DNA from: Candidatus Poribacteria bacterium
GTDB taxonomy: Bacteria; Poribacteria; WGA-4E; WGA-3G
Reading direction: 5' to 3'
DNA length: 64,000 nt
Assembly: GCA_022822085.1 (NCBI GenBank)
Contig: JAJECK010000091.1
Location: 1 to 64,000, forward strand
Shown here: piece by piece, positions 48,130-52,012 of the stretch
Layout: each line of letters opens with the position of its first letter
Position numbering within the stretch: position 1 is the first letter of the stretch
Notes under the pieces: generated by a model
What the model saw: the letters and a program-made list of their open reading frames with translations, nothing else
What the model was told of the DNA's origin: nothing
Databases searched by the model: none
Made by a program: the position numbers and the translations under genes

Positions 48130-48158
48130 TTGACACCCGCTAATTTTAACTATATAAT
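48130..48158 (+). promoter_or_regulatory. Perfect-consensus promoter of the MarR gene
   Basis: TTGACA (48130-48135), a 17-base spacer and TATAAT (48153-48158) match the sigma-70 consensus exactly. The -10 box overlaps the left arm of a 30-base palindrome, so a bound repressor would block it. Confidence 0.82.
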
Positions 48159-48183
48159 TTATGTCGTATACGACGGAAATTAT
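48154..48183. promoter_or_regulatory. 30-bp palindromic operator, likely MarR autoregulation site
   Basis: A perfect 12-base palindrome, GTCGTATACGAC (48163-48174), is extended by ATAATTT on the left and AAATTAT on the right, with a two-base mismatch between. It overlaps the -10 box and transcription start and lies 26 bases before the MarR-family ATG. The placement is classical for MarR autorepression. Confidence 0.72.
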
Positions 48184-48208
48184 ATCTTATGTAGGACGTA
48201 TTTGATAA

Positions 48209-49087
48209 ATGTCTAAAAACCGGGAGTTTAACAAAGAAATTGATTTTGTCATGCGAGTGATGCATCACGCGCAAGCCGCAGTCAAATCCAGGTTTATTCA
48301 AGATGTAGTACCCAATCGACTGACAGTCGTACAATTCAACGCCATACAACACTTACATTGGTTTGGTGGTGAAGCTGGTATGTATGTCAGTGAATTAGGT
48401 GAACACTTAGGACTTGCACATAATACAGTCTCTGGTTTAGTCAATAGACTTGAGAAGCACGGTTGGGTAGTCCGTTGTAAATGTGATGAAGATCGAAGAA
48501 GGGCACGTATTCAACTAACACCACAATCTGAGGAACTCTTTCAAGAACGTGTCCAATACGCTGCAGATTTCTGGGAACAAACTATTGGACAACTTTCAGA
48601 TGAAGAAAGAGAAAACTTATTAGGAAGTTTAAAGAAGTTGAAACATGTAATGGCAAAACCAGTCTGGCCAAGTTATGCGCAAATGCATCCTCGTGATGCT
48701 GACCATTTGCGTGAAAAATTTGAAACTGAACTTGACGAACTTGTTCAAGCAAAGCTTAAACTCGTTGGAATCAGATTAATACTTGCCAAAATCGCTGAAA
48801 AGCGGAATGAACACGAACTTGCCGCATACCTTAACCAAGCAGCTTCTGAAGAAATTCATCATACAAACCAATTATTCTCACTACTTGGTCATGGTGAAGA
48901 TTTTCATACCCTTCTGTCATCACTCGTTGATGAAGACAAAGTGGTCTACGAAGAGTTATTAACTTTAACTGAAAATGCACCCTGTAATGAAGATGATGAG
49001 GAGTTAATTCTTCTCCAACAGATGCTTCAAGATAGTCATAGATATAAACGATGGTTTAGTAAAGTCCAAAAGCAAAAGAATCGGTAA
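48209..49087 (+). CDS. MarR-family regulator with rubrerythrin-like C-terminal domain
   Basis: A 292-residue protein about twice normal MarR length. Residues 1-147 are a MarR winged-helix (LTVVQFNAIQHLHWFGGEAG, LAHNTVSGLVNRLEKHGWVV, then DEDRRRARIQLT in the wing). Residues ~170-290 are helical and align by eye with rubrerythrin: KIAEKRNEHELAAYLNQAAS followed by EEIHHTNQLFSLLG (Glu214, Glu215, His217, His218). The first iron-ligand Glu of rubrerythrin is not evident, so metal binding may be lost or altered. It has its own promoter-operator and is 62 bases upstream of an ECF sigma gene. A redox- or peroxide-sensing role is inferred. Confidence 0.8.
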   Translation: MSKNREFNKEIDFVMRVMHHAQAAVKSRFIQDVVPNRLTVVQFNAIQHLHWFGGEAGMYVSELGEHLGLAHNTVSGLVNRLEKHGWVVRCKCDEDRRRARIQLTPQSEELFQERVQYAADFWEQTIGQLSDEERENLLGSLKKLKHVMAKPVWPSYAQMHPRDADHLREKFETELDELVQAKLKLVGIRLILAKIAEKRNEHELAAYLNQAASEEIHHTNQLFSLLGHGEDFHTLLSSLVDEDKVVYEELLTLTENAPCNEDDEELILLQQMLQDSHRYKRWFSKVQKQKNR

Positions 49088-49149: not shown

Positions 49150-49767
49150 ATGCAGTCCCAAAGCCACGAAAGTATTCCTTCTGACTGTAATGATGATGAT
49201 GCCCATCTGATTGAACAATTTCAGAAAGGCGACACTGCAGTGTTTGATACGCTTTTTACTCGCTATCAAAAACGCACTTATCGGTTAGTTCAACGTTTTG
49301 TCCCAAACCATGAAGATGCCCTTGATATTACGCAAGATGCGTTCATACGCGCTTATCAAGGCTTAGGTGACTTCAAAGGTCAGTGCCAATTTTATAGTTG
49401 GCTATACCGAATAACGTTCAACCTGTGTATTGATTTTCTTAGGAAAAAAGCGCGTTCGGAAGTAATGGTATATGAATCTGAAGAATCTGAGGAATTGCCA
49501 ATGGCTAATTTCCCTGACTTACGATCAGATTCACCTGCTAAAGCTGCTGAGAATAAGGAACTTAGAATCCAAATTCGGAAGGCGATTCGGCAACTCCCAC
49601 CCAAGCAACGTCAAATCTTTATCTTACGCCACTGGGACGGTTTATCACTAAAGGATATTGCTGTTAAAGTTGGAAGGTCAGATGGAACAGTCAAAGCACA
49701 CCTATTCCATGCACATCGCAACTTACGTAAACATCTACGACCTTATTTGAAGGAATCAGATGTTTAA
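49150..49767 (+). CDS. ECF-type RNA polymerase sigma factor
   Basis: A 205-residue sigma-70 family member. Region 2 is seen in VFDTLFTRYQKRTYRLVQRF, DALDITQDAFIRAYQGLGDF and FYSWLYRITFNLCIDFLRKK; region 4 in LPPKQRQIFILRHWDGLSLK and DIAVKVGRSDGTVKAHL. GAGGAG precedes the ATG. No anti-sigma gene follows: the next gene, ftsY, is convergent. Possibly regulated through the MarR/rubrerythrin protein upstream or by an unlinked factor. Confidence 0.93.
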   Translation: MQSQSHESIPSDCNDDDAHLIEQFQKGDTAVFDTLFTRYQKRTYRLVQRFVPNHEDALDITQDAFIRAYQGLGDFKGQCQFYSWLYRITFNLCIDFLRKKARSEVMVYESEESEELPMANFPDLRSDSPAKAAENKELRIQIRKAIRQLPPKQRQIFILRHWDGLSLKDIAVKVGRSDGTVKAHLFHAHRNLRKHLRPYLKESDV

Positions 49768-50993: not shown

Positions 50994-52012
50994 CGCTCAT
51001 GTCAAGAATGAATGCATTTCTATGTTTGAACAAGTTGTGATATAAACCGAGTCGTCCGAGTTTTGAGATTAATAGCAAACTCACAGATAGCAATATAGCC
51101 AGCGAGGCATTTTTTATGAACGCCACGAAATGGACGCAGAAAGTTGCGAATGGTCGTCCACATACCTTCAATCGTATTGATATGAACTTCTCGGATACCA
51201 TCAGCATCGTCATCTCGCGCCCATTCATGATCTCCATGGCAGACTACAGCATGGCAGCGGTCAAGCGCGTTGTAGCCACGCCAAGCATCTATATAGACGA
51301 TGGCATCACAATGTGTGAACTGATGCACGTGAGCCGTGAGGGTCGCTTTATCGGTGTGATGTGCCAAACGCAATCGCACGGCACGACTCTCCCGTCCCAG
51401 CGTGCCAACGACCGGAGGCCGGTCGTTGGCATAAGTGCCGTGGCCTTTGCGCTTGTTGCCACGCCGCCGGGGTGGGTCTTCAGGATCCCGATGCGGTTCG
51501 CCTTTCTCACCCGCGTTTTGGAACATCTCATCAGTCTCTACAACCGCATCTGGCAACGCCGAATCCGGCTCTATCGCTACGGCATTAGACTGAAGCACAC
51601 GCCGTATGGACATTACGGTTTGACGACTCACACCGATTTCACGACCCAGTTGTCCACTCGAAACACCTTGACAGATACCCCGCAACAACAAAACCACCTA
51701 CGAAGGTGTCCACTGGGTCTGTTGAAAAGCTGTGCCACTATAGAGATTGGACACACCATCACACGAAAGACACCGATAGATTTGCAGACGACTCTTCCGA
51801 GTCCTGTCGAAATGACGTGCCTCCTTCACGCCGAAATGACGTGCCTCCTTCACGCCCGCATCACAATGAGGACAGTGTCCGCCTTCCGGGTGAAAGTGTT
51901 TCAGCAACCGAGCGGTCGCTTGTTCTTCATCAATGAGGTCTATTATTGGAAAATCCATACACTAAAGTTTACGCGATTCAAAAAAACTTTGCATCAACTT
52001 TTTACATGAGCG
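50994..52012. mobile_element. IS1595-type insertion sequence
   Basis: About 1.02 kb bounded by imperfect inverted repeats: CGCTCATGTCAAGAATGAATGC at 50994-51015 is matched by the complement of 51991-52012 at 17 of 22 positions (motif given in two parts elsewhere: CGCTCATGT is identical). It encodes one minus-strand transposase, interrupted by TAG. Its GC content is visibly higher than the surroundings, indicating recent transfer. No clean 8-bp target duplication is seen, so the exact ends are uncertain. Confidence 0.7.
51020..51958 (-). pseudogene. IS1595-family transposase with internal TAG
   Basis: The frame from 51958 to 51020 encodes a ~312-residue IS1595-type DDE transposase broken by TAG at 51698-51700 (WTPS-stop-VVLLLRGICQG). 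The N-terminal part has a CPHC...CLSC zinc ribbon split by a 24-base tandem duplication (GVKEARHF twice). The C-terminal part has VETDEMFQNAGEKG, VYIDAWRGYNAL and INTIEGMWTTIRNFLRPFRG, the ISXO2-like catalytic motifs. A CAG to TAG change is the simplest cause. Both parts are in the same frame, so readthrough would restore the protein. Confidence 0.82.

Follow-up and report, generated by a model that had tools for sequence, protein, structure and literature searches.

What does a transcriptional regulator sense when its DNA-binding half is joined to a domain of iron-protein lineage whose metal site has been altered? The question is raised by a gene in the window, the 64,000-nucleotide stretch of Candidatus Poribacteria DNA analysed here, which combines a MarR-type winged helix with a rubrerythrin-like helical domain. 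Ferritin-like diiron proteins are widespread, as enzymes and as stores. In a literature search confined mostly to papers available without subscription, no bacterial transcription factor with a ferritin-like diiron sensor half was among the matches listed, and among the matches listed for MarR control of ECF sigma operons (8 of 26) there was no close case. Few regulators of Poribacteria have been studied, to our knowledge. The reading put forward, with a probability of about 0.58, is that the protein acts as an autoregulated MarR repressor of its own sigma-factor operon, with the rubrerythrin-derived C-terminal domain as a metal-free effector half. The fusion, the substitutions, their conservation, the operon and the promoter/operator layout are read from the sequence, and what we infer from them is the binding, the repression, the signal and the sigma regulon.

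The gene and the parts of its product are arranged as follows.

48209 to 49087, + strand: MarR–ferritin-like (rubrerythrin-lineage) fusion regulator, an open reading frame of 292 aa with an ATG start
48320 to 48502, + strand: MarR winged helix-turn-helix (wHTH), residues 38-98 (Pfam MarR_2, E 9.6e-12; Foldseek MarR structures, E 1.2e-4)
48482 to 48484, + strand: Cys92 in the wing, Cys in 58 of the 62 alignment rows with a residue there
48665 to 48691, + strand: interdomain linker motif WPSYAQMHP, residues 153-161, consensus WPSYxQxHP in an alignment of 63 rows
48695 to 49084, + strand: C-terminal ferritin-like domain, residues 163-292, from sequence comparison and structure models

The MarR half lies above the Pfam cut-offs of two families, MarR_2 (45.3 bits, cut-off 27) and MarR (37.7 bits, cut-off 24.6). 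MarR structures are also the best Foldseek matches (E 1.2e-4) of a full-length AlphaFold model, built on two sequences and of low confidence (pLDDT 57.5). Between the two halves, residues P151, W153, P154, S155, Y156, Q158, H160 and P161 are each at least 95% conserved over the 63 rows, and this conservation of the WPSYxQxHP linker fits a single fusion event. The joining of a MarR domain to a ferritin-like domain of rubrerythrin lineage, which the initial annotation proposed, is borne out by the MarR_2 match and by a two-step profile comparison presented below, and the two are conserved as one protein.

Of 84 Poribacteria genomes, 63 encode a relative of the protein over its whole length, two of these relatives being cut by contig ends. 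Such relatives are found in 52 of 58 genomes of family f1, 8 of 9 of f4, both of f6 and the single genome of f7, and are absent from f2 (0/2), f3 (0/3), f5 (0/6) and f8, f9 and f10 (0/1 each). A protein in OY282386.1, also from a Candidatus Poribacteria bacterium, is 89% identical to the window protein. The same search (E up to 1e-10) found the fusion in none of 302 other genomes; relatives were also sought in sets of 97 and 84 genomes. Further non-Poribacteria sets, which may overlap, contained the fusion in 0 of 4, 0 of 132 and 0 of 385 genomes at E 1e-18 or better, with only two plain MarR matches at that level. Viral contigs yielded no relatives (9 stretches), and the plasmid search gave no fusion: each of its 6 records covered no more than about 30% of the query, within the MarR part. 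Five MarR proteins of other genomes, chosen as long or high-scoring (L082-L086), and two more (L151, L152) were considered as candidates and set aside, none of them matching the C-domain profiles. In two of these proteins, L082 and L085, from other lineages (genomes G293 and G300), the winged helix is followed at the C-terminal end by a cluster of Cys residues, a CxxC and others, that might serve as an Fe-S or zinc sensor.

The origin of the C-terminal domain is not apparent from the window protein taken singly. Residues 163-292 match no Pfam family in a single-sequence search, and so fall below the PF02915 Rubrerythrin cut-off. A search of Pfam and NCBIfam with the domain alone gave nothing over threshold and one sub-threshold match to an R2-like oxidase (E 0.09). 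The link is provided by the f6 orthologues of genomes G072 and G076, which come from the same taxonomic class, have about 35-37% identity to the window protein and pass Pfam Rubrerythrin at 37.3 and 37.1 bits, respectively (cut-off 22.8). Rubrerythrin is not among the families listed for the f7 protein (G073) in the same search. The G072/G076 C-domain profile matches symerythrin and sulerythrin at E about 7e-6. In hhalign, window-type C-domains (58 rows) align with those of G072/G076 at a probability of 99% (E 1e-18, 133 columns), and the latter align with seven stand-alone Poribacteria rubrerythrins at 97% (E 3e-11). Direct comparison of window-type C-domains with the stand-alone rubrerythrins is weak (probability 6.7%, score 23.1); as controls, 50 column shuffles score at most 17.8, the MarR half scores 14.6 and the reversed alignment 12.0. 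Chance resemblance to rubrerythrin is ruled out by the two-step comparison with these controls. In a tree of 16 of the 63 fused domains and the 7 stand-alone rubrerythrins, the fused domains form one clade (support 99/97), in which those of f6 lie nearest the rubrerythrin outgroup and that of G073 forms a long branch. On this profile and tree evidence, the C-terminal domain of the window protein is a descendant, via forms such as those of G072 and G076, of the rubrerythrin / ferritin-like superfamily. The rubrerythrin-like stretch AAYLNQAASEEIHHTNQLF remarked on earlier is present at residues 205-223, and its ExxH pair is E215-H218. The rubredoxin domain of classical rubrerythrin is absent, the protein ending at residue 292 right past the helical domain, with one Cys in its C-terminal half. 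Among stand-alone proteins, the one that matches the f6 fused domain most closely (E 9.5e-16) is a rubrerythrin-like protein of 144 aa (L135, genome G074), possibly a relative of the donor of the fused domain.

Structure prediction agrees in part with the four-helix bundle whose absence the initial annotation would have taken as counting against it. The domain is helical, with helices in the right order at about 161-198, 202-225, 232-255 and 264-290 (the last in two pieces), and confidence is modest, the AlphaFold model of the domain alone, built on a two-sequence alignment, having a mean pLDDT of 70.7. Its top 50 Foldseek matches are ferritin-like, with a best E of 0.086 and an rmsd mostly of about 17 Å, which means that the modelled helices are not packed like those of ferritins. 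In VIA-align the best match is 6n63 (Z 11.6, 2.7 Å over 121 residues) and the next has a Z of 8.9; helical bundles below about Z 13 may match in this comparison merely by common arrangement. PDB 6n63 is, we presume, the IMEF encapsulin cargo, an iron-binding protein.

The diiron ligands of sulerythrin are given as E20, E53, H56, E92, E126 and H129 in PMC9589262. The corresponding positions of the window protein are K182, E215, H218, D243, S276 and Y279, of which two are identical, one is a conservative change and three are lost.

48752 to 48754, + strand: Lys182, in place of the helix-1 Glu (E20); Lys in 60 of 60 rows outside f6, Glu in both f6 rows
48851 to 48862, + strand: Glu215-x-x-His218, the kept helix-2 pair (E53, H56); Glu in 59 of 59 and His in 58 of 59 f1 and f4 rows
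48935 to 48937, + strand: Asp243, in place of the helix-3 Glu (E92); Asp in 59 of 59 f1 and f4 rows, Glu in f6
49034 to 49045, + strand: Ser276-x-x-Tyr279, in place of the helix-4 ExxH (E126, H129); S in 44 and N in 15, Y in 58 and F in 1 of the 59 f1 and f4 rows, E and H in f6

These counts come from the alignment of 63 rows, one of them without the C-domain, in which f1 and f4 together contribute 59 rows (the window protein and 58 close orthologues). Helices 2-4 were mapped through the alignment of the G072/G076 C-domain profile with symerythrin/sulerythrin; for helix 1 the ungapped register of that alignment was extended, and the Glu reached in this way is also aligned with the rubrerythrin Glu by hhalign. 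The initial annotation was correct in seeing no first iron-binding Glu, the position being Lys182, and beyond this loss the helix-4 ExxH is also gone (S276/Y279). The diiron carboxylate ligand set (4 carboxylates and 2 His, as two ExxH and two Glu) is thus incomplete in the window protein. In f6 it is kept in full, as E, ExxH, E, ExxH, and the f7 protein has K, L, H, R, V and H at the six positions. Judged by these residues, a diiron centre is unlikely in the window protein and a diiron sensor is likely in G072 and G076. The iron- or peroxide-sensing repressor first suggested for this locus is accordingly disfavoured for the window protein as a diiron centre, with three ligands lost, and is plausible for its two f6 relatives.

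It is doubtful that the domain of the window protein is still metal-bound, with a single iron or zinc at E215/H218/D243, and that the protein is thereby the iron- or redox-sensing repressor originally proposed. The three residues, kept in 59/59, 58/59 and 59/59 f1 and f4 rows, could from their identity bind one metal ion. A site of this type also tolerates one lost ligand, since the E126A and E126D variants of sulerythrin still bind two irons, according to PMC12851003. Against a single metal, all f1 and f4 rows lack three ligands at once, and a fixed positive charge (K182) stands in place of one of these. The genomes themselves point the same way: among 59 sampled, all 35 of f1 and all 9 of f4 lack a PF02915 rubrerythrin over threshold, and such proteins are present in both f6 genomes, in f7, in f8, in 2 of 6 of f5 and in 1 of 3 of f3. 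The f7 genome has rubrerythrins yet a changed site, and is therefore an exception to any simple link between the site and genomic rubrerythrins.

Selection on the C-terminal domain bears on what the altered site is for. Median pairwise dN/dS of this domain is 0.066 in g1, 0.093 in g2 and 0.076 in f4 (saturated pairs dropped; 131/136, 496/496 and 24/28 pairs kept), and that of the wHTH is 0.045, 0.046 and 0.036, respectively. Across the window protein and its 58 close orthologues, near-fixed residues occupy five of the six ligand positions. Decay of the domain is ruled out by these values and fixed residues: C-domain ratios of 0.07-0.09 together with fixed residues indicate a site that was changed and then held. 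It is improbable that the domain is merely a structural or dimerisation module and that the signal is read at the MarR ligand cleft or at Cys92. The wing Cys is present in 58 of 62 rows and the C-domain changes at roughly double the rate of the wHTH, which would suit this view; a mere scaffold would not need near-fixed residues at K182, E215, H218, D243 and Y279, the former metal-site positions. The domain probably once sensed iron and has since taken on another function, in keeping with the metal-free effector half of the preferred reading.

What the regulator controls is suggested by the DNA around it.

48130 to 48158, + strand: sigma-70-type promoter, TTGACA, 17 nt, TATAAT, with 12 of 12 consensus positions and the same layout upstream in related genomes
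48163 to 48174, no strand assigned: candidate operator, the perfect palindrome GTCGTATACGAC, 4 nt past the -10 box and conserved in relatives
49150 to 49767, + strand: ECF-type RNA polymerase sigma factor, 205 aa, second gene of the operon (Sigma70_r2, E 1e-17; Sigma70_r4_2, E 2.5e-17)

The palindrome has its sole exact copy in the 5.63-Mb genome of the window at this promoter. The exact 12-mer occurs in 16 of the 18 genomes of the genus set, at the fusion-gene promoter in all 16 and nowhere else in 14 of them; the further exact copies, one in G016 and two in G010, lie in or beside unrelated coding sequence. In the two other genomes of the set, the fusion gene is present with a palindrome carrying one mismatch (G001) or no fusion gene was found (G011). 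Over 62 loci in all, a site with at most two mismatches lies within 250 bp upstream of the gene in 17/17 g1, 30/33 g2, 1/1 g3, 1/1 f7, 1/8 f4 and 0/2 f6 loci, the chance level being 0.5% of mononucleotide shuffles. The best upstream site of the remaining 7 of 8 f4 loci is 3-4 mismatches from the g1 form. The operator is thus weak in f4 and absent in f6, so that operator and protein did not stay together throughout. A wider operator regulon was rejected: in G000, one-mismatch sites add 7 to the exact site, fewer than the 17 of a reversed-pattern control, so none is evident, and the extra exact sites are at unrelated coding sequence. GTCGTATACGAC is taken as a candidate site for the predicted MarR dimer at its own promoter. 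By eye, a second conserved stretch, roughly TATATCnGATATAGGAC (48175-48203), lies about 20 bp past the operator in many related genomes; it might represent another binding site or belong to the ribosome-binding region.

In 60 of 63 loci the ECF sigma gene comes directly after the fusion gene, in the same orientation. The other three are a locus at a contig end (G053) and the two f6 loci with intact sites. Sigma orthologues with E under 1e-77 are found in 59 genomes, all with the fusion, and that of f7 is weaker (E 3e-54); the six f1 genomes without the fusion lack the sigma orthologue too. At the f7 locus, where sigma gene and operator are both present, positions 215, 243, 276 and 279 are L, R, V and H, so that a K-E-H-D-S-Y core is not needed in every such operon. 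Beyond the sigma gene, the window and those further f1 loci that were viewed have a gene named by eye as ftsY-like on the opposite strand. Between this gene and a MazG-like gene of the window (also named by eye), two adjoining open reading frames at 51020-51958 (- strand) resemble one transposase split by a stop or frameshift.

In the two f6 loci, the fusion gene is followed by genes for an ABC exporter and a DUF1854 protein, probably a target other than the sigma factor. The best NCBIfam match of the exporter is a cyanophycin-metabolism-associated ABC transporter, then MsbA, with exporter and DUF1854 protein under the cut-offs. In these loci (L034 1894-5580 and L033 2485-6254) the exporter has an N-terminal zinc-ribbon-like pair of CxxC. 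It is very unlikely that the fusion protein serves additionally or chiefly as an anti-sigma factor, with its C-terminal bundle binding the adjoining ECF sigma: tight adjacency and co-occurrence with the sigma gene would suit it, as would the lack of any other anti-sigma-like gene on the same strand directly after the sigma gene in nine loci viewed by eye, but the wHTH is the best-conserved part and a palindrome lies at the promoter, which points to transcriptional control, and G072 and G076 have the domain without an adjacent sigma gene.

Under the autorepressor reading, the MarR repressor, presumably a dimer, would bind the one palindrome just past the -10 box of its own promoter and would shut off a two-gene operon encoding the regulator itself and the ECF sigma factor. 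The effector half would be the C-terminal domain, derived from a rubrerythrin-type diiron protein. In its ancestral state, preserved in G072 and G076 with complete diiron ligands, this domain probably sensed O2, peroxide or iron. In the lineage of the window the site appears to have been rebuilt to a K-E-H-D-S/N-Y core, which should not hold a diiron centre and is more likely to bind a small ligand or to respond to oxidation without metal. The DNA would be released on a signal received by the C-domain or by the wing Cys92, and the resulting burst of sigma factor would switch on a wider regulon. A more specific version is offered very tentatively, namely that K182, E215, H218, D243 and Y279 form a rebuilt, metal-free core that senses oxidants or a small molecule and controls the ECF sigma factor, with the iron version kept in deeper relatives.

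The presence of intact-site and rebuilt-site forms in one phylum makes the loss of metal and the change of signal in a regulator directly testable. Should the domain prove to be a metal-free sensor, the before and after states of one sensor would both be at hand. The locus would also be an example, from Poribacteria, of an ECF sigma factor controlled in a compact and self-contained way by a one-component repressor.

Several known systems share parts of this arrangement. The nearest solved MarR-family repressor by sequence is Tm0710 (2a61), and the likeness to this family lies in a winged-helix domain over the Pfam cut-off and in a palindrome that overlaps the promoter of the fusion regulator itself. 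Plain MarR proteins stop near its residue 150, whereas the fusion regulator has an extra ferritin-like domain of about 130 residues. With sulerythrin, symerythrin and rubrerythrin (PDB 1j30, 3qhb) it has in common the helix order, descent through G072/G076 and the helix-2 ExxH; it differs from them in having Lys for the helix-1 Glu, Asp for the helix-3 Glu and SxxY for the helix-4 ExxH, and from rubrerythrin-type proteins in being fused to a DNA-binding domain, without a rubredoxin domain. The IMEF encapsulin cargo, the best VIA-align match to the C-domain model at a Z of 11.6 (under the level of about 13), is a stand-alone iron cargo. A parallel for the altered site is offered by the class Ie ribonucleotide reductase R2e, in which, according to PMC11846895, the Glu ligands are replaced (QSK and VPK forms) and the protein works without metal. 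R2e is an enzyme and the window protein a putative regulator, and the likeness is one of analogy only: a metal site of the same general kind, with Glu ligands swapped, Ser and Lys among the replacements, and function kept (PMC11846895).
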